A DNA stretch of 24,720 nt from positions 1 to 24,720 of IMG/VR virus record IMGVR_UViG_3300028854_000048; one strand, 5' to 3'. Within the stretch, counting starts at the first letter, position 1. Each line of letters begins with the position of its first letter. The translations under genes were made by a program, and so were the position numbers. The DNA is from a virus. This document shows, piece by piece, positions 3,428 to 22,915 of this stretch. Under the pieces are notes generated by a model, which was not told the origin of the DNA, ran no database searches, and saw only the letters and a list, made by a program, of their open reading frames with translations.

Positions 3428-3949
3428 ATGCTTATATTAAATGAAGAAAACAATCCTATAGATTTAAATTTAATTCCAGATCAATGTGATTTGTATTTTT
3501 GGGTTTTCGATAATAGCACGGGATTCAAAGATTATTTTTGCGTTCCATTATTAATGCTTGAATCTTTCTATTCACCAACAATAAAGTTACGTCTAACTAC
3601 AAACAAATCGCGTAAAAATGAAAAAAATTATTTTTTAAATGTCCCATCGGATTATCAAATTTTAATTGGTGAACCAACTTGTGGAGATTTAGAAATTAAT
3701 CCAATTACAAGTATTAGTTCCCGACATTTTAATGCTTTTTCAGTGAATCCAATGTCATCTTTCACTGCTGATTATCTACATTTGGAAGTAGAAGATGTTT
3801 TACCAGCCGTAAAATGGTTTATGCCGAAAACTAAAACTGGTCAATTATTATGTATTCCACTTGAAAATTGTCATAGACCAGAATGTATTTATTTAGTTAG
3901 AGAAATGCCAAAATCATTAGAAATTATTCAAAGTTCAAATGCGTGGTAA
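3428..3949 (+). CDS. Conserved-looking hypothetical protein, 173 aa
   Basis: 173 residues, soluble, no signal peptide or membrane segment. The sequence is mixed alpha/beta with a central segment NPITSISSRHFNAFSVNP. I do not recognise the family. It has its own perfect sigma70-type promoter and is predicted to be translated from a leaderless mRNA, which points to early expression. Its 3' end overlaps the tail of the minus-strand endonuclease gene by 15 bp. It lies between uvsW and the clamp-loader gene, so a role in replication or takeover is possible but unproven. Confidence 0.75.
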   Translation: MLILNEENNPIDLNLIPDQCDLYFWVFDNSTGFKDYFCVPLLMLESFYSPTIKLRLTTNKSRKNEKNYFLNVPSDYQILIGEPTCGDLEINPITSISSRHFNAFSVNPMSSFTADYLHLEVEDVLPAVKWFMPKTKTGQLLCIPLENCHRPECIYLVREMPKSLEIIQSSNAW

Positions 3950-4876
3950 ATTATCCAAGAAATTTTTAATACAGACAGAAATATTTTTCTCTTTATATGA
4001 AATTAATAATAATGGAACATTGTTCTTGGCGCAATAATTTAATTTAATCATATCTCTTTTTTGTAACTTCTCAAATTCTATTTTTCCACCGTAAAATTTT
4101 ATAGGTTTATAATGTTGTCCACCTTGAAATTCTATAAGACCTATTAATTTTTGGTTTAAAAATATTGCAAAATCAAAGGGTAATACTTTTTTATTTTTAC
4201 ATTCTGGTATTTTAAACTGAACTTTGTAATCGATATTATAATCTTGCAAAAAATTTTCTGTAGCTTGTTCTCCTTTAGATTTTATACATTTAGGACAACC
4301 ACATCCATTTAAATGACTAATAGGTTCTTGTTTAAAATCTCCGTGTAATGGGCAAGTAATAATTATTTTTGTTTTTGAATTTACATATATTGCTCGTTCA
4401 TAGGAAAATTTTCTTCTATGGATTTCCGTTGCTAATGTTATAAATTCTTCAAGAGAATAACGAGAGCTTGCTGCTGTTGCTTCCATTCCGCATGTATAAC
4501 ACCCTTGACCAGTTAAATGGTTATTTGGACGTATTAAAAAATCTCCATGTTTCTGACATGTTATTATTAATTTAATATTCCATCCTTTATAAATTGATTT
4601 TTCATAAAAATATCTATCTTTATGTATATTCATGGCAGAATTAATAAACCAAGCTGTTGTTTTTGTTCTTGCCTTAGCACCCGATATTAATCCACATTTA
4701 GGACAACCACATCCATCCAAATGATCATTTGCTTTTTGTTTGAATTCTCCGTGTAATGGGCAAGTAATTATTACTTTATTGAATATACCAGTGTATGTTG
4801 TTAATATATAAGAATATTTAAAATTATGAACAATATTTGCTCTTTCTATAAAATTTTCTGTAATATAAATATTCAA
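3935..4876 (-). CDS. Free-standing homing-type endonuclease with Zn repeats (DUF723-like), copy 2
   Basis: 313 residues, start codon TTG at 4876 with AAGGG about 11 nt upstream. Three Cys/His repeats (CPLHGEF...HLDGCGCPKC and relatives) cover about residues 30-205, then a nuclease domain with GE, LPFDFAIF, IEFQGGQHY, KRDMIKLNYC and VPLLLISY. Same architecture as the copies at 981 and 12664 but on the opposite strand. Its N-terminus (NIYITENF) resembles that of the 12664 copy. The gene is wedged between an early hypothetical gene and the promoter of the clamp-loader operon, a typical mobile-gene position. Target and activity are inferred. Confidence 0.8.
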   Translation of the reverse strand: MNIYITENFIERANIVHNFKYSYILTTYTGIFNKVIITCPLHGEFKQKANDHLDGCGCPKCGLISGAKARTKTTAWFINSAMNIHKDRYFYEKSIYKGWNIKLIITCQKHGDFLIRPNNHLTGQGCYTCGMEATAASSRYSLEEFITLATEIHRRKFSYERAIYVNSKTKIIITCPLHGDFKQEPISHLNGCGCPKCIKSKGEQATENFLQDYNIDYKVQFKIPECKNKKVLPFDFAIFLNQKLIGLIEFQGGQHYKPIKFYGGKIEFEKLQKRDMIKLNYCAKNNVPLLLISYKEKNISVCIKNFLDNLPRI

Positions 4877-10881: not shown

Positions 10882-11267
10882 TTAAGTATTTAAAATTACA
10901 TTCTTCCAAGACTTTCTTGTAATAATATTATTTATTGTTCCAAGGGTTAAATTAAATAATACTCCTATTTCTTTTTGAGTCATTTTTGTTTCTGTATATA
11001 AACAATAAATTTCTTTTACTTGATCCTCTGATATTTTTCTAATTCAAAGGCATCCCTTTCAGTCATAAGTTCATAAATAAATTCAATTTTACTAATGTCA
11101 TTTGGAATTGATATTCCTTTTTGGTGTTTAATAAAAGCTCGATTTCCAGAACCTTTACCAATATAATAAGGTGATCCAATATCGCCGTTTTGTGATTTTT
11201 TAGACCGCAAATACATATAAACATAAAATCTATTGTCTTGGTAAAAGGTGATAGGATAAATATCCAT
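10882..11267 (-). pseudogene. Frameshifted GIY-YIG homing endonuclease
   Basis: The first part (ATG at 11267) encodes a GIY-YIG core with FYVYMYLRS, SPYYIGKGSGNRAF and a helix ending ELEKYQRIK before a stop at about 11016. In the next frame, with no stop until TAA at 10882-10884, lies a helix-turn-helix DNA-binding tail (SEDQVKEIYCLY, MTQKEIGVLF, NNIITRKSWKNV) of the kind at the C-terminus of such endonucleases. The two halves are joined by a frame change near 11020-11035, and the middle region is short, so an internal deletion with frameshift is likely. The leader is unusual and shared with the 12664 endonuclease. The N-terminal piece might still be made. Confidence 0.75.
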
Positions 11268-11323
11268 AGCTGATTGCCTCCTTGGGCGTTAGAGCAGTTG
11301 GAGATTGCATTCTCGTGAACTGC
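11265..11323 (-). promoter_or_regulatory. Structured 59-nt mRNA leader (copy A), through the start codon
   Basis: Minus-strand leader of the GIY-YIG gene. Hairpin 1 pairs GCAGTT with AACTGC and has an inner stem GAGA/TCTC. Hairpin 2 pairs GCC/GGC and holds the GGA of the Shine-Dalgarno in its loop. Predicted late +1 (11323) is the first base of hairpin 1. Aligns without gaps to 12608-12666, with compensatory changes in both stems. Confidence 0.7.
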
Positions 11324-11327
11324 ATTC

Positions 11328-11350
11328 TTATTTATCAAATGGATAAATAA
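11328..11350. promoter_or_regulatory. Back-to-back late promoters in a perfect inverted repeat
   Basis: TTATTTATC (11328-11336) and GATAAATAA (11342-11350) are exact reverse complements separated by AAATG. Each arm contains GATAAATA: the plus copy drives the Gp88-like gene (predicted +1 at 11355, at the GGAG ribosome binding site), and the minus copy drives the GIY-YIG leader (predicted +1 at 11323). Confidence 0.7.
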
Positions 11351-11366
11351 CTTAGGAGATTTAAAA

Positions 11367-12599
11367 ATGAGAGCTTGGGAAATTTTAGAGACGAAATTAA
11401 ATGGATTAACAATTATTCCTATAGATAGATTTATAGAGAAGGGTTATCCAAAAAATAATATTGAAGCCGAAGATTTGGACGAAGATGAAATACTTGATGA
11501 AGCTGATTTTGGATTGGGTTCCAAATATCGTGTAGCTCCAGAAGTAGAGTTACAAGATTATATCGGTAGAATTAAAAACAACGAACCAGATAAAATGGAT
11601 ACTTATAATCTTCCATATATTCATGGTAACAATATAGAAATTAAAAATGAATCTGGAGAAAATTATGATTTAGATGCTTTAAAAAAAGCAATTACAAGAC
11701 GCCCAACATCCTTACTCAAACAAAATGAAAAAATGAAACATAGTGATGGCACAGCCGATCAATATTATAATGTTGGTCTTCCTGCATTAAAAGGTTTAGC
11801 TGTTAATGAAGAAACTGGAGATTTTGTAGTTGTTGATACTTGTCCGGGTGCTGGTGCTTGCAAAACTTTTTGCTATGCAAAGAAAGGAAGTTATATAATG
11901 TTTAAAGCGGTAAGTATGAAACAAACCCAGACCTTGAATTTTTTATTGAACGATCCAGAGGGTTTCGCTTCTGAATTGAGTAGAGAAATTCAAAAAGCAA
12001 TTGATTATTGGGATAAATGGAGTTTAAATCCAAAGAAAAATATAGATAATATTGAAGTAAAGGTTGCAATCAGATTTCATGATAGTGGAGATTTTTTTAG
12101 TCCAGAATATATGAATATGGCATTTGGGGTAGCAAGATCATTTCCCAACAACTTGTTTTATGCATATACAAAAATTGCTTCGGCTGCTAACTCAAAAGAT
12201 AGACCAGAAAATTTTGTTTTGAATTTTAGTGCTGGTGCCTTATCAACTCAAAGCAAGTTAGTTAATATTACTGGCCCAAATGCTGCAAAATATAGTCAAG
12301 TTGTTCCTAAAGATATGTTCTTTGATTTAATTGCTCGTGAAGGAAATAAAATCATTAAGAATGCAGAAGGAGCTACTCAATTTAAAAACCCTGAAGCATG
12401 GGATGAATTCAAAGATAGATTAGCTGATAAATATAAAATTGACAAGGATACAATTTTATCATATGAAGAATTTATGGAAAAGAAAATGGCCCATGAACTA
12501 GATGGAAAAACAAAGGTAAACGTGGTGGTTGCACCGGGAGAGGGAGATATTTCGGCAACTGATCCAAACTGTATTGGAACATATTTACTTTTTCACTAA
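11367..12599 (+). CDS. Gp88-like phage protein with a capsid-targeting-like N-terminus
   Basis: 410 residues. The core has TCPGAGACKTFCYAKKGSY (C159, C165, C169), then FHDSGDFFSPEYMNMAF (238-254) and LFYAYTKIA, the set I associate with the phage Gene 88-like family, whose function is not known. The three cysteines suggest a metal or Fe-S site. The N-terminus MRAWEILET resembles a T4 capsid-targeting peptide ending in the protease motif I-x-E, and is followed by an acidic linker (EAEDLDEDEILDEADF). The gene has a late promoter and GGAG. Packaging inside the head is an inference. Confidence 0.75.
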   Translation: MRAWEILETKLNGLTIIPIDRFIEKGYPKNNIEAEDLDEDEILDEADFGLGSKYRVAPEVELQDYIGRIKNNEPDKMDTYNLPYIHGNNIEIKNESGENYDLDALKKAITRRPTSLLKQNEKMKHSDGTADQYYNVGLPALKGLAVNEETGDFVVVDTCPGAGACKTFCYAKKGSYIMFKAVSMKQTQTLNFLLNDPEGFASELSREIQKAIDYWDKWSLNPKKNIDNIEVKVAIRFHDSGDFFSPEYMNMAFGVARSFPNNLFYAYTKIASAANSKDRPENFVLNFSAGALSTQSKLVNITGPNAAKYSQVVPKDMFFDLIAREGNKIIKNAEGATQFKNPEAWDEFKDRLADKYKIDKDTILSYEEFMEKKMAHELDGKTKVNVVVAPGEGDISATDPNCIGTYLLFH

Positions 12600-12604
12600 A
12601 AATA
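12597..12604 (+). promoter_or_regulatory. Weak late promoter (TAAAAATA)
   Basis: One mismatch to TATAAATA, overlapping the stop codon of the Gp88-like gene. Predicted +1 falls at about 12610, at the 5' end of leader copy B. Confidence 0.35.
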
Positions 12605-12607
12605 AAC

Positions 12608-12666
12608 GCAGTTCGCGGTGTATCAGCACCCAACTGCTCTAATGTCATCGGAGACAATCAGCTATG
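12608..12666 (+). promoter_or_regulatory. Structured 59-nt mRNA leader (copy B), through the start codon
   Basis: Leader of the Zn-repeat endonuclease at 12664. Hairpin 1: GCAGTT 12608-12613 with AACTGC 12632-12637, inner stem GGTG/CACC. Hairpin 2: TGTC 12643-12646 with GACA 12653-12656, loop ATCGGA, so the GGAG ribosome binding site is partly paired. Homologous to 11265-11323 on the other strand. Confidence 0.7.
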
Positions 12667-13803
12667 GGTATTTATAACACCGAATATTTTAAAAAACGAG
12701 CACAAGATATACATTATGATAAATTTGATTATTCAGAAGCAATTTATATAAATTCAACTACAAAAATTAATATCATATGTAAAATTCATGGTTGTTTTGC
12801 ACAAACACCATCAAACCATTTCAAGTATGGATGTAATAAATGTGGTTATGAACAGTCTAGTTTAAAACAAAAAAGTAATATTGAAATTTTTATTCGTGAA
12901 TCAAATGTTATACATAATTTAAAATTTGATTATTCTGAATCTATATATGTAAATGAAAAAACAAAAATTATAATTATATGTCCATTTCATGGACGTTTTG
13001 AACAATGTCCTGTGTACCATAAACAGGGGCAAGGTTGTCCAAAATGCGGAAAAATTTCTTCCAAAAATAAACTATGTAAAAAACATAATGTGTTTATTAA
13101 AGAATCAGAATTAATACAAAAAATAAAATATGATTATAGTGAAACAGTGTATATTAATTCACATTCAAAAGTTACTATAATTTGCCCAATACATGGAAAA
13201 TTTGATCAGCTTGCTAAAAGTCATATCAATGGAGTTGGTTGTCCTAAATGTTTTGGAACACCATTATCAACTAAAGAGGAATTTATAATAAAGGCTAATA
13301 AAATACATGAATATAAGTATAATTATGAACATGTATTTTATACAGGAAACAAAATAAAAGTTATAATTGTTTGTCCAAATCACGGTGAATTTTTACAAAA
13401 ACCAAACTCTCATCTAACTGGCCAAGGATGTCCCATGTGCAAGGAATCGAAAGGTGAGCAAACAATAAGAAAATTTTTCTTAGAAAATAGTATTATTTTT
13501 AAACGTCAATATAAAATTAAAGATTGTAAAAACATTAGAACGTTACCTTTCGATTTTGCAATATTAAAAAATAATAAACTATATTGTTTGATAGAATATC
13601 AAGGTGAACAACATTATAGACCTTTTGCTTTTGGATCAAAAAATAAAGACTTATCCAATACTCGATATAACAGTATTGTTAAAAACGATCTAATAAAATC
13701 TACTTACTGTAAAAACAACAACATACCATTTCTTGCTATACCATATACAAAATTAGATAATTTAGATAATATCCTAAAATCATTTATACTCTCTTTAGAA
13801 TAA
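12664..13803 (+). CDS. Free-standing homing-type endonuclease with Zn repeats (DUF723-like), copy 3
   Basis: 379 residues, the longest of three paralogues because it carries four Cys/His repeats (the CPFHGRF, CPIHGKF and CPNHGEF units plus a first CKIHGCF unit) before the nuclease domain with GE, LPFDFAIL, IEYQGEQHY, KNDLIKSTYC and IPFLAIPY. Repeat number probably sets how much DNA is contacted. Translation starts at ATG 12664, ten nt after GGAG, within a structured leader shared with the GIY-YIG gene. It sits between two late genes with capsid-targeting-like N-termini. Confidence 0.8.
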   Translation: MGIYNTEYFKKRAQDIHYDKFDYSEAIYINSTTKINIICKIHGCFAQTPSNHFKYGCNKCGYEQSSLKQKSNIEIFIRESNVIHNLKFDYSESIYVNEKTKIIIICPFHGRFEQCPVYHKQGQGCPKCGKISSKNKLCKKHNVFIKESELIQKIKYDYSETVYINSHSKVTIICPIHGKFDQLAKSHINGVGCPKCFGTPLSTKEEFIIKANKIHEYKYNYEHVFYTGNKIKVIIVCPNHGEFLQKPNSHLTGQGCPMCKESKGEQTIRKFFLENSIIFKRQYKIKDCKNIRTLPFDFAILKNNKLYCLIEYQGEQHYRPFAFGSKNKDLSNTRYNSIVKNDLIKSTYCKNNNIPFLAIPYTKLDNLDNILKSFILSLE

Positions 13804-18904: not shown

Positions 18905-19234
18905 TCAAGATAAAAATTTTGCCAACATTTGAATAGAAATTGTTGGATTTTTGATAAAATAAATGGCCCAACAATGTTGATTAACAGCCGCCAATTGCAC
19001 ATCTTCACTTGAATTTTGAATATAATAAATAGCAACACCGTTTTGATTCACAGCCATCAATTGCACTTTTTCACTTGGATTCTTAATATATTGAATAGCA
19101 CATCCATCTTGATTAACCGCAGCTAATTGCATGTTTTCGCTTGGCTTTTTGATAAATCGAATGACATGACCATCTTGATTAACAGCGGCCAGTTGCTCCG
19201 ATTCCGACATCAAATTGTAATCTATTTCGCTCAC
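18905..19234 (-). CDS. DUF4116-like repeat protein, short paralogue
   Basis: 109 residues, GTG start at 19234. Four repeats of about 23 residues with core AVNQ-G-AI-YI-NPSE, similar to DUF4116 repeats, predicted helical hairpins. The C-terminus PTISIQMLAKFLS matches PTISVQMMAKLLS of the longer paralogue at 22388, and both share DYN near the N-terminus. The promoter is nearly identical to that of the paralogue and places the GTG at +1. Function is unknown; repeat proteins of this kind could bind host proteins. Confidence 0.75.
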   Translation of the reverse strand: MSEIDYNLMSESEQLAAVNQDGHVIRFIKKPSENMQLAAVNQDGCAIQYIKNPSEKVQLMAVNQNGVAIYYIQNSSEDVQLAAVNQHCWAIYFIKNPTISIQMLAKFLS

Positions 19235-20230: not shown

Positions 20231-20248
20231 CTCATGGAGATATTCATA

Positions 20249-20959
20249 ATGCGACTCAATGAAATCGATAGTATAAATTTTATTCGAAAAGATTCTGAGG
20301 TATTTATTACTCTTTATAATCAATGGAAAGAAAAAATGCGCTCCGGTTGTGAGGTAGACTCCGTTGGTAAAATTGGTCCATATCGCATTCTAACGTTAAA
20401 TTATAAGGTATGGTCAAATGATGACTGTAAAATGTATTGTATATACGATATTAAAAAAGAAGAAGAACCAGCGGGTTTTGTTGAATTATATAGTTTTGGA
20501 AACTCAAATCGAGTATTTGAAGTAAATTATGTTGGAATATCTAAAAAATATCAAGGGCAAGGATTATCTGTAGCTCTCTACACATTTTTAATACAAAAGT
20601 TAAATTTAATATTAATGTCTGGATCATGTCAATCAATGGGTGGAAGAGATATTTGGACAAAATTAGGAAAAGTTAATGGTATTTTTATGTTTGCTTATGA
20701 TAAAGCACATAAAAAATCATATCAAATCGAACAAGACGATTTATTTAATACCGATGTATATACCGCAGATATTCTTGATGAAATAGATGAATTAGAACAA
20801 GAAAGAGATGAAATAATCGCTAATAGTGATTTAAATATTAATCAAGCATTACAAAATAAAAAAGTAATGGAAATCAATCAAAAAATATCTGATTATCGCG
20901 AAGAAGTTCGCTCACTTGAAAAAGTTTATTTAGTTGCAATAAAAGGTAGAAAGAAATAA
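20249..20959 (+). CDS. GNAT-like paralogue 1
   Basis: 236 residues. An upstream ATG at 20234 precedes predicted +1, so the start is 20249, which has GGAG 9 nt upstream and aligns with both paralogues. The centre VNYVGISKKYQGQGLSVALY fits GNAT motif A with an intact Q-G-Q-G acetyl-CoA loop, followed by the shared SMGGRDIWTKLGKVNGIFMF segment and a Glu/Lys-rich coiled tail (ELEQERDEI). Probably an N-acetyltransferase; substrate unknown. The N-terminus MRLNEI is capsid-targeting-like. First of three tandem paralogues under one late promoter. Confidence 0.7.
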   Translation: MRLNEIDSINFIRKDSEVFITLYNQWKEKMRSGCEVDSVGKIGPYRILTLNYKVWSNDDCKMYCIYDIKKEEEPAGFVELYSFGNSNRVFEVNYVGISKKYQGQGLSVALYTFLIQKLNLILMSGSCQSMGGRDIWTKLGKVNGIFMFAYDKAHKKSYQIEQDDLFNTDVYTADILDEIDELEQERDEIIANSDLNINQALQNKKVMEINQKISDYREEVRSLEKVYLVAIKGRKK

Positions 20960-21628
20960 ATGACTCTAAATGAAATTATCAATATTGACCGAGTATCTAA
21001 ATCATCTGATTTATATTTGAAACTTGTCCATAATTGGATAGAGGGAGAAAAGATTGATCGTCCAATTAAAATATTGGGTAAGCTATCTGGTTATGAAATT
21101 CAATATATGGAAATTCCTCAATACAAAGGATATTATTACGGACTGTTTGATAAGAATAAAAATCAATTTGCATTTTTTCTTGAGTTATCTAAATTTGGAC
21201 GAACGACAAAATGTTTACAGGTTGAAATGGCGGGTATTAAAGATGAATATTCAGGTATGAATCTTCCAATCAAATTATATTCATGGCTTATTTTACAGCA
21301 GGGTATAGTTATGGTATCTGGTTTTGAACAATCAATTGGTGGAAGATCAATATGGGAACGACTCGCTAAGGTTTCTGGTGTTTTTATATTTGGTTATGAT
21401 ACAAAAACAAAAACGTCATTTCAGCTTGATCAAAATGATATATACAATGAAGATATCTATTCACGTGATGTCACAGATGAATACAATGATTTAATACAGC
21501 AAAGAAATTCATCATCTGACAAAAATGAAATCAACAAACTAACTACACAAATTAAATCATTAAACAATACAATAAGAAATACTTTTAATATTAGATTAGT
21601 TGCCATTAAAAATACAAATAGGAAATAA
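20960..21628 (+). CDS. GNAT-like paralogue 2
   Basis: 222 residues, starting directly after the stop codon of paralogue 1. It shares the whole architecture: N-terminus MTLNEI, a motif A-like segment VEMAGIKDEYSGMNLPIKLY, then SIGGRSIWERLAKVSGVFIFGYD, a conserved acidic stretch (LDQNDIYNEDIYS) and a polar coiled tail. The acetyl-CoA loop is changed to Y-S-G-M-N-L, so binding may be altered or lost. It has probably diverged after duplication into a structural or binding role. No separate promoter. Confidence 0.7.
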   Translation: MTLNEIINIDRVSKSSDLYLKLVHNWIEGEKIDRPIKILGKLSGYEIQYMEIPQYKGYYYGLFDKNKNQFAFFLELSKFGRTTKCLQVEMAGIKDEYSGMNLPIKLYSWLILQQGIVMVSGFEQSIGGRSIWERLAKVSGVFIFGYDTKTKTSFQLDQNDIYNEDIYSRDVTDEYNDLIQQRNSSSDKNEINKLTTQIKSLNNTIRNTFNIRLVAIKNTNRK

Positions 21629-21630
21629 CA

Positions 21631-22356
21631 ATGAAACTATGTGAGATTGAAAACTTAAAAAGTATAAAAAAATCTAATACTGGATTTAATGAACTTTATT
21701 GGTCATGGAAAGATTTACAACGGCGCGGGAATATATTTGACGTTGTTGGAAAACTGAATAATTTTGAAATTCAATATAATACTGAATATATATCTTCATT
21801 TTATTACGGTGATAAATATTATTCTTTATATGACAAAAAGCAAAACCAATATGCAATGATTGTGCACCTTTCTAAATTTAAGAATAAAGAATCTGTGTTA
21901 GAAGTTGATATGGTTGGAGTAGAAAATAAATATAAAGGTTTAAATTTATCGGTTAAGTTATATGCATGGCTCATTAAAAATAAAAGTATTACTTTGGTAT
22001 CTGGTAGGCAGCAATCTCCGGGTGGAAGGTCAATATGGGAAAGACTAGCTAAAGTTCCCGGTATTTTTATGTTTGGATTTAATATTCTATCTGAAAAATC
22101 ATTTCAGATAGAACAAAACGATTTGTTTAATGAAGATATATATGATGATGAATTACAGAAAGAAGCTGATTATTTATATAGAGAATATAACGCTACAGAA
22201 AAAGAAATGCATAAAATTGAAAACTCAGATGAAAAAGAATATAAACGTTTAAGACTAAAATGCTCTGCAATCGATGAACAATTAGATAAAATTAATGATG
22301 ATGTTCGTTTAATGGATTCTATTGTATTGGTGGCAACCAAAAATAAACGGTCTTGA
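21631..22356 (+). CDS. GNAT-like paralogue 3
   Basis: 241 residues, two nt after paralogue 2. N-terminus MKLCEI, motif A-like VDMVGVENKYKGLNLSVKLY (loop again altered, K-G-L-N-L), SPGGRSIWERLAKVPGIFMFGF, IEQNDLFNEDIYDDE and a long charged coiled tail. It is closer to paralogue 2 than to 1 in the central block, suggesting stepwise duplication. The last codons TCT TGA form part of the -35 box of the next gene's promoter. Confidence 0.7.
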   Translation: MKLCEIENLKSIKKSNTGFNELYWSWKDLQRRGNIFDVVGKLNNFEIQYNTEYISSFYYGDKYYSLYDKKQNQYAMIVHLSKFKNKESVLEVDMVGVENKYKGLNLSVKLYAWLIKNKSITLVSGRQQSPGGRSIWERLAKVPGIFMFGFNILSEKSFQIEQNDLFNEDIYDDELQKEADYLYREYNATEKEMHKIENSDEKEYKRLRLKCSAIDEQLDKINDDVRLMDSIVLVATKNKRS

Positions 22357-22387: not shown

Positions 22388-22915
22388 ATGAATGAAAAAG
22401 ATTACAATTCGATGTTAGAATCAGAGCAATTGGCTGCGGTTAATCAAAATGGTTATGCCATTCAATATATCAAAAACCCAAGCGAAGTAGTGCAATTGGC
22501 GGCGGTTAATCAAGATGGTTATGCCATTCGATACATCGAAAACCCAAGCGAAGATGTGCAATTGGCTGCGGTTAAACAAAATGTTTGGGCCATTGAATAT
22601 ATCAAGAAACCAAGCGAAGATGTGCAATTGGCTGCGGTTAATCAAAATGGCGTGGCCATTCGATACATCGAAAACCCAAGCGAAGAAATGCAACTGGCTG
22701 CGGTTAATCAAGATGGTCATGCAATTTATTATATCAAAAAACCAAGCGAAGTAGTGCAATTGGCGGCTGTTAATCAAGATGGTTGTGCCATTCAAATTAT
22801 CAAAAACCCAAGCGAAGATGTGCAATTGGCGGCTGTTAATCAAGATGGTTGTGCCATTAAATATATTGACAATCCAACAATATCTGTTCAAATGATGGCC
22901 AAATTATTGTCTTGA
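22388..22915 (+). CDS. DUF4116-like repeat protein, long paralogue
   Basis: 175 residues with seven 23-residue repeats (core AVNQ-G-AI-YI-NPSE-VQL). At the DNA level the 69-bp units are highly alike, indicating recent expansion or gene conversion. N-terminal DYN and the C-terminal PTISVQMMAKLLS are shared with the four-repeat paralogue on the other strand at 18905. No ribosome binding site; a leaderless mRNA is predicted. Probable helical solenoid; function unknown. The antisense frame at 22421-22891 is a shadow created by the repeats. Confidence 0.8.
   Translation: MNEKDYNSMLESEQLAAVNQNGYAIQYIKNPSEVVQLAAVNQDGYAIRYIENPSEDVQLAAVKQNVWAIEYIKKPSEDVQLAAVNQNGVAIRYIENPSEEMQLAAVNQDGHAIYYIKKPSEVVQLAAVNQDGCAIQIIKNPSEDVQLAAVNQDGCAIKYIDNPTISVQMMAKLLS
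22430..22870 (+). repeat. Tandem 69-bp coding repeats
   Basis: About seven 69-bp units, each containing variants of CAATTGGCGGCTGTTAATCA, with units differing at a few positions. They encode the DUF4116-like repeats and could expand or contract by recombination or slippage. Confidence 0.8.

Follow-up and report, generated by a model that had tools for sequence, protein, structure and literature searches.

A GIY-YIG-type gene and a Zn-repeat nuclease gene in one stretch of virus DNA (24,720 nt, positions 1 to 24,720 of IMG/VR record IMGVR_UViG_3300028854_000048; hereafter the window) start with copies of a conserved module, which on balance appears to be a mobile expression unit of ~95 bp carried 5' of unrelated homing endonuclease genes by T4-like environmental phages. 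Our preferred reading, to which we give a probability of roughly 0.55 on the strength of sequence comparisons, is that two late promoters facing each other would transcribe one duplex, yielding the leader of the endonuclease mRNA from one strand and, from the other, a two-hairpin antisense RNA that lies over the ribosome-binding site. It builds on a family of copies with defined boundaries and conserved base pairing, an asymmetry between the strands, paired promoter motifs and a tie to endonuclease genes.

The module in the window and in other virus contigs

An earlier note on this DNA had described two 59-nt leaders, at 11323-11265 (minus) and 12608-12666 (plus), and both are present, each ends in ATG, and the two align without gaps (Table 1). 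The shared blocks it listed, GCAGTTC, CCAACTGCTCTAA, GGAG and CAATCAGCTATGG, occur in both, and the stem exchanges GAGA/TCTC for GGTG/CACC and GCC/GGC for GTC/GAC were verified. The similarity does not begin at the G of GCAGTTC, as had been supposed, since a late-promoter-like ATAAATA precedes it, 5 nt before that G in 174 of 252 copies; TATTTAT is indeed common to both genes, as a motif of the nucleotide sequence and not as protein similarity. With up to three mismatches allowed, the window contains two occurrences of GGAGNCAATCAGCTATGG and no more, where 0.01 would be expected, and the covariance model described below scored the two copies, both of which belonged to the 74 sequences that built it, at 63.2 and 53.6 bits, with nothing else above 7.1 bits. 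Folding of each leader alone on the mRNA strand was unremarkable (z -0.69 and -1.77), so two copies were insufficient to decide and more were required. The GIY-YIG ORF, which had no Pfam match at E 0.1, reaches a stop shortly after its GIY-YIG part, its leader is intact, and it is probably a decaying copy; the Zn-repeat nuclease is a probable homing endonuclease.

Table 1. Features of the two module copies, in window coordinates.
Feature	Position	Strand	Basis or remark
Late-promoter-like GATAAATA, candidate promoter of GIY-YIG mRNA	11329..11336	-	Ends 5 nt before hairpin-1 G; spacing rule n=252
mRNA-strand hairpin 1, GCAGTT...AACTGC, inner GAGA/TCTC	11294..11323	-	Leader comparison, folding, covariance model
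mRNA-strand hairpin 2	11274..11288	-	Shine-Dalgarno GGAG at 11281-11278
GIY-YIG-type homing endonuclease ORF, truncated, 83 aa (MDIYPITFYQ...YYIGKG)	11016..11267	-	Motif by eye
Opposing late-promoter-like GATAAATA	11255..11262	+	Within GIY-YIG codons 2-4; elsewhere kept in several frames
Antisense SL1, CUGAUUGCC-UCCUUG-GGCGUUAG	11270..11292	+	Loop region carries Shine-Dalgarno complement
Antisense SL2, GCAGUU...AACUGC with G-Y-G bulge	11294..11323	+	Folding
U-rich tract 3' of SL2, complement of mRNA promoter	11324..11336	+	Possible weak terminator; U content n=252
Late-promoter-like TAAAAATA, one mismatch, candidate promoter of Zn-repeat endonuclease mRNA	12597..12604	+	Overlaps TAA stop of upstream gp88-like gene
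mRNA-strand hairpin 1, GCAGTT...AACTGC, inner GGTG/CACC	12608..12637	+	Leader comparison, folding, covariance model
mRNA-strand hairpin 2	12643..12657	+	Shine-Dalgarno GGAG at 12650-12653
Zn-repeat nuclease ORF, 379 aa	12664..13803	+	DUF4379, DUF723
Opposing late promoter motif TATAAATA	12669..12676	-	Exact T4 consensus; inside endonuclease codons 2-5
Antisense SL1, CUGAUUGUC...GACAUUAG	12639..12661	-	Folding
Antisense SL2, Zn-repeat copy	12608..12637	-	Folding

Further copies, which a covariance-model search had been expected to reveal, proved numerous far outside the window: pattern scans and the model together gave more than 250 distinct copies in virus contigs, with up to 13 per contig. 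The full block string, as an exact pattern, matched 4 IMG/VR stretches, looser patterns matched 19 and 38, a few of them falsely (the 38 from the hairpin-1 pattern alone), and at least 120 stretches each were matched by CTCTAA-N8-22-TCAGC-ATG-NN-TAYTTAT and by the GTAGTT version of hairpin 1. The module was defined from an alignment of 105 non-redundant copies and from the covariance model R1, built on 74. R1 found copies in all 27 virus contigs and the one phage isolate searched, including 13 each in G001 and G002 and 12 in G012; because these records were chosen for carrying copies, the search gauges how many copies a record has and how well the scores separate, and says nothing on how common the module is among phages. 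The virus-contig copies scored at least 42 bits; the copy of the Rhizobium phage reached 31.2 bits, and the sole other match 15.8. Averaged over 214 copies, conservation runs from ATAAATA, 12 nt before hairpin 1, to TATTTAT just past the start codon, and falls to background outside these sharp edges.

No copy was found in ten records searched with stricter filters, among them T4, S-PM2, P-SSM4, ACP17, phiN3, Merlin and avDM2. The only isolate found with a module is Rhizobium phage RHph_I1_18 (MN988519), whose divergent copy (L269:3013-3078) sits 5' of EVB91_137, a hypothetical protein with a TTG start (MTIYQPYTYL), and has nearly the same folding energy on either strand (-13.5 vs -12.9). Three more copies that looked genuine (L262, L266 and L268) come from metagenome-assembled genomes, under the labels Nitrosarchaeum, Erysipelotrichaceae and Bacteroidetes, and probably lie on misbinned phage contigs.

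The claim that a base-paired module is common to unrelated homing endonucleases is borne out by this family. Virtually all copies adjoin the start codon of a homing endonuclease gene of the GIY-YIG or HNH type, and the window adds the Zn-repeat nuclease as a third type. In six long contigs, whose copies were collected completely or almost so and whatever gene lay downstream, 59 of 60 led into the start codon of an ORF of GIY-YIG or HNH type (truncated in some cases), and the remaining copy was decayed. Pfam searches of 54 downstream proteins found HNH_3 in 16 and NUMOD3 in 9, the GIY-YIG assignments being mostly motifs seen by eye. Among 68 copies fetched by hairpin 1 alone, endonuclease motifs were recognized, by a regular expression and manual reading of its misses, in all except a few truncated or frameshifted genes. 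Some modules stand before truncated endonuclease ORFs of 30-61 aa (L305, L317, L329 and L349) and one stands before none (L359), as expected from the homing life cycle. The 3' ends of the endonuclease genes had no partner element, and two relatives of the Zn-repeat gene (L379 and L380) had no module. A further Zn-repeat endonuclease gene in the window (3935-4876, minus strand) begins at an inverted repeat, GTAAATATTCATTGAATATTTAT (4887-4865), which resembles two facing promoters without the module core, and the covariance model finds no copy there.

The strand that carries the fold

Covariation was strong in both hairpins across the alignment. At 14 pairs defined on the mRNA strand, 92.9% of cells were paired, compared with 66.2% in shuffles and 29-45% when the pairing was slid, and 301 cells were doubly changed, compared with 81 in shuffles. 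The copies in alignment A3 had been selected with a paired outer stem, so the outer stem was retested on 111 copies fetched regardless of it; all six pairs were intact in 92 of these, as against 2% of shuffles.

The earlier note had assigned this structure to the mRNA leader, a choice of strand that is probably wrong. The copies are related and their counts are not independent, making a count by distinct stems the fairer one, and, counted once for each of the 51 different outer stems of hairpin 1, changes on one side only amount to 23 A.C and 0 G.U when read on the mRNA strand. For hairpin 1 over 222 copies (outer six pairs plus inner pairs 1-3) the figures are 28 A.C and 0 G.U, and the internal-loop pair R9-Y is G-C in 179, A-C in 29, A-T in 12 and G-T in 0. 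Hairpin 2 behaves alike, with 17 A.C and 1 G.U at pairs 1-3 and a closing pair that is C.A in 109 copies and T.G in 2; the inner pair 4 beside the loop has no strand preference (G.U 18, A.C 13). An A.C mismatch on one strand is a G.U pair on the other, which places the selected fold on the strand opposite to the mRNA. Mutational strand bias was rejected as the cause of the A.C excess, as skews in the flanks are near zero (GC 0.046, AT 0.026), and selection merely to weaken the mRNA hairpin would not preserve the perfect Watson-Crick stems seen in 28 of the 51 hairpin-1 stem types.

Predicted stabilities point the same way. The antisense fold is the more stable in 197 of 213 copies, compared with 53% for random stretches from the same loci, and the consensus fold reaches -22.0 kcal/mol on the antisense and -14.0 kcal/mol on the mRNA strand with RNAalifold (-38.1 vs -26.9 with RIBOSUM scoring). 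In the window, antisense and sense energies are -18.5 and -14.5 kcal/mol for the GIY-YIG copy and -18.4 and -17.8 kcal/mol for the Zn-repeat copy. Most of the gain arises in SL1, where the antisense mean is -6.6 and the mRNA-strand mean -2.5 kcal/mol, and little in SL2 (-9.3 vs -8.4 kcal/mol). The constant blocks TCTAA and TCAGC, left unpaired in the first reading, pair fully only on the opposite strand: there the constant TCAG and CTAA read as CUGA and UUAG, which pair, one of their pairs being a nearly invariant G.U, and extend the second hairpin to ~8 bp. Rare variants of these blocks are still paired (CCAG in 20 copies, CTAT with ACAG in L330, TTAG in L192 and L252). The likeness of the TCTAA segment to group I intron P4-P5 elements did not hold up, and an intron remnant was rejected, given that TCTAA and TCAGC are pairing partners in the antisense fold and that Rfam offered no match. 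Against Rfam 15, four module loci gave no intron match at E 5 and no family at the gathering threshold, and the whole window gave only a tRNA at the gathering score.

These results bear directly on the alternative closest to the original proposal, a structured 5' mRNA leader in which hairpin 1 would cap and stabilize the 5' end, hairpin 2 would tune access to the Shine-Dalgarno and the opposite strand would be silent. Promoter, predicted start, Shine-Dalgarno (AGG or GGA within hairpin 2 in 248 of 252 copies) and AUG all stand in register on the mRNA strand, and hairpin 1 folds well there too, at a mean of -8.4 kcal/mol compared with -9.3 for the antisense strand. We nevertheless consider this improbable: G.U is nearly absent and A.C frequent on that strand, the consensus fold is 8 kcal/mol weaker than its antisense counterpart, and TCTAA, TCAGC and a TATTTAT kept in several frames are left unexplained. 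Hairpin 2 of the mRNA had been thought to hold part of the Shine-Dalgarno, and at a mean of only -2.5 kcal/mol it probably does not hold it tightly.

Facing promoter motifs and the proposed antisense RNA

The module is flanked by promoter-like motifs on both strands. On the mRNA side ATAAATA represents a T4-type late promoter motif, and in most copies TAAATA falls within a few nucleotides of the leader; for the T4-like cyanophage S-PM2, NATAAATA has been published as the late promoter (PMC2984593). Upstream of ORFs in these contigs, ATAAATA lies on the strand of the gene and on the opposite strand in a ratio of 173:73. Frames resembling T4 gp55 were found in 8 of 16 records searched and not found in the other 8, including G012 with its 12 copies, for which fragmentation or divergence is a possible reason. 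At the far end TATTTAT is this late-promoter motif facing backwards from inside the coding sequence: TATTTA stands 5 nt from YCAGC, that is from the predicted first base of the antisense RNA, in 180 of 252 copies, and it is kept across three codon frames (offset 5 in 207 copies, 3 in 20 and 4 in 15). In the Zn-repeat gene the backward motif TATAAATA is closer to consensus than the forward motif TAAAAATA.

A closing helix between ATAAATA and TATTTAT was considered as the main constraint on these motifs and rejected. The two are paired in the minimum free energy structure of 58 of 198 mRNA-strand read-through RNAs, the helix is mostly unstable and covaries little (ATAAGTA is paired with TACTTAT in only 2 copies, and in 20 copies the C has no matching G), and promoters account better for the 5-nt spacing found at either end.

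In the mechanism that we propose, two late promoters opposed across one ~57-bp duplex would both fire late in infection. The endonuclease mRNA would start at the G of hairpin 1, carry its Shine-Dalgarno in a weak hairpin and reach its AUG just past the duplex, and the antisense RNA would start at or next to GCUGA and consist, in order, of a G, SL1 (CUGA-NNNN-loop with CCUU-NNNN-UUAG), an A, SL2 and a U-rich tract. Its complementarity to the mRNA leader extends from about +1 almost to the AUG, so the antisense RNA may block ribosome binding, and the endonuclease would consequently be made late and in small amount. The invariant A.C mismatches of the mRNA, as G.U pairs of the antisense RNA, would leave the Shine-Dalgarno open in the former and the latter well folded. 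We infer that the antisense strand is transcribed, that its transcript ends near SL2 and that it represses. The suggestion that the module controls endonuclease translation is retained as plausible, with the folded RNA probably coming from the opposite strand instead of the mRNA leader. Identical outer stems recur in many copies of one genome, so action of the RNA is not necessarily confined to cis, and the conserved G-Y-G bulge goes beyond what antisense pairing alone explains.

About as improbable as the mRNA leader is an insulator or bidirectional module, whose opposite-strand hairpins and U-rich tract would stop antisense transcription passing through the endonuclease gene and so spare its neighbors. 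The tract after SL2 averages 6.75 U in 12 positions, compared with 4.5 further on (252 copies), an AAAGT spacer behind it is not seen at other late-promoter-like sites, and divergent upstream neighbors are common (108, as against 63 on the same strand, of 171). This explanation accounts neither for the G-Y-G bulge nor for a promoter motif set at an exact distance from the antisense RNA start, and the tract begins with A-C instead of U; because it is also interrupted by A's, termination is uncertain, and a terminator scan called neither window copy. With 63 neighbors on the same strand, and at varying distances, the antisense RNA was also rejected as the 5' leader of a divergent neighboring gene.

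Less probable still, the module might encode a trans-acting small RNA, a protein-binding RNA or a ribozyme, with the endonuclease merely using its promoter and ribosome-binding site. The strict conservation of UUAGA and of the G-Y-G bulge in SL2 (10-11 bp) would fit such a role, as would the presence of up to 13 copies per genome and an SL1 loop, CCUU, that could pair with many Shine-Dalgarno sequences, but no gene of any other kind than an endonuclease was found with a copy and no known family matches. A DNA-level element, in which one strand would form a hairpin as single-stranded DNA for homing, replication or recombination, is very unlikely: its pairing would be nearly perfect and strand-specific as observed, and G.T is tolerated on single-stranded DNA too, but promoter motifs with the usual 5-nt spacing at both ends indicate RNA and the 3' ends of the genes lack a matching element.

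Relation to known systems

Cis-encoded antisense RNAs are familiar from plasmid copy control and type I toxin-antitoxin loci, where, as proposed here, a short hairpin RNA is encoded across from the ribosome-binding region of a gene that could do harm. The module shares their opposite-strand promoter, at the level of its motif, and their defined antisense fold; unlike them it has phage late promoter motifs on both strands, one of them in codons 2-4, and moves between unrelated endonucleases. The HEARO/OMEGA RNAs of IscB-type nucleases are likewise structured RNAs beside a mobile nuclease gene, but they are much longer, lie on the same strand as the nuclease and act as guides; such length, strand and guide function are not seen in the module, and Rfam gave no match to it.

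Closer to the phages considered here, the T4 genes for I-TevI, I-TevII, I-TevIII and segB, and mobE of Aeh1, are controlled by late promoters and RNA hairpins, the hairpin of the read-through mRNA hiding the ribosome site and late transcripts lacking the hairpin-forming sequence (PMC2988022). That arrangement resembles the module in its T4-like phages, its homing endonucleases, its late promoter just upstream and, as proposed here, an RNA structure that helps to limit translation, but the module serves unrelated families, selection on its fold acts on the opposite strand, and a further promoter motif faces back. Cyanophage S-PM2 produces CfrI, a ~225-nt RNA antisense to a homing endonuclease gene and psbA, which has been confirmed at one locus and connects two genes (PMC2984593). 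CfrI is thus also an antisense RNA at a homing endonuclease gene of a T4-like phage; we infer that of the module from sequence, and CfrI is longer and known from one locus with two genes, in a phage without a module copy. The single parts are known in kind, as late promoters and hairpins of T4 endonucleases (PMC2988022) and as the CfrI antisense RNA (PMC2984593). What appears to be new is a bounded two-promoter module that is portable and shared by unrelated endonucleases. We found no published description of it in a literature search that covered few subscription papers, so an earlier mention is possible.

The chances seem even that these sequences represent a new phage small-RNA family, of late two-hairpin antisense RNAs with a built-in promoter, portable, acquired by unrelated endonucleases and dictating their first residues. 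On that reading the endonucleases mostly begin M-x-I-Y because these codons encode the antisense RNA promoter. Selfish endonucleases require expression high enough to spread and low enough to spare the phage, and one module before GIY-YIG, HNH and Zn-repeat nucleases would show the control unit itself moving between selfish genes. How phages manage a dozen such endonuclease genes at once becomes directly testable, the 57-nt model together with the M-x-I-Y start provides a simple marker of freestanding homing endonucleases in metagenomes, and the G.U/A.C asymmetry is a clear case of identifying the strand of a functional RNA.

Several other loci deserve mention. Sinorhizobium phage phiN3 has a gene related to the endonuclease of the Rhizobium phage, and close upstream of its start codon (L370:1443-1490) lies a long hairpin, CTCCCATGTATGG...CCATACATGGGAG, whose loop contains CTAAATA, an I-TevI-like arrangement. 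Elsewhere in the window, two tandem-repeat proteins (22388-22915 and 18905-19234) share a unit of the type EDVQLAAVNQDGxAIxYIxNPS, and three adjacent related genes of ~220-240 aa each (20234-22356) probably arose by tandem duplication.
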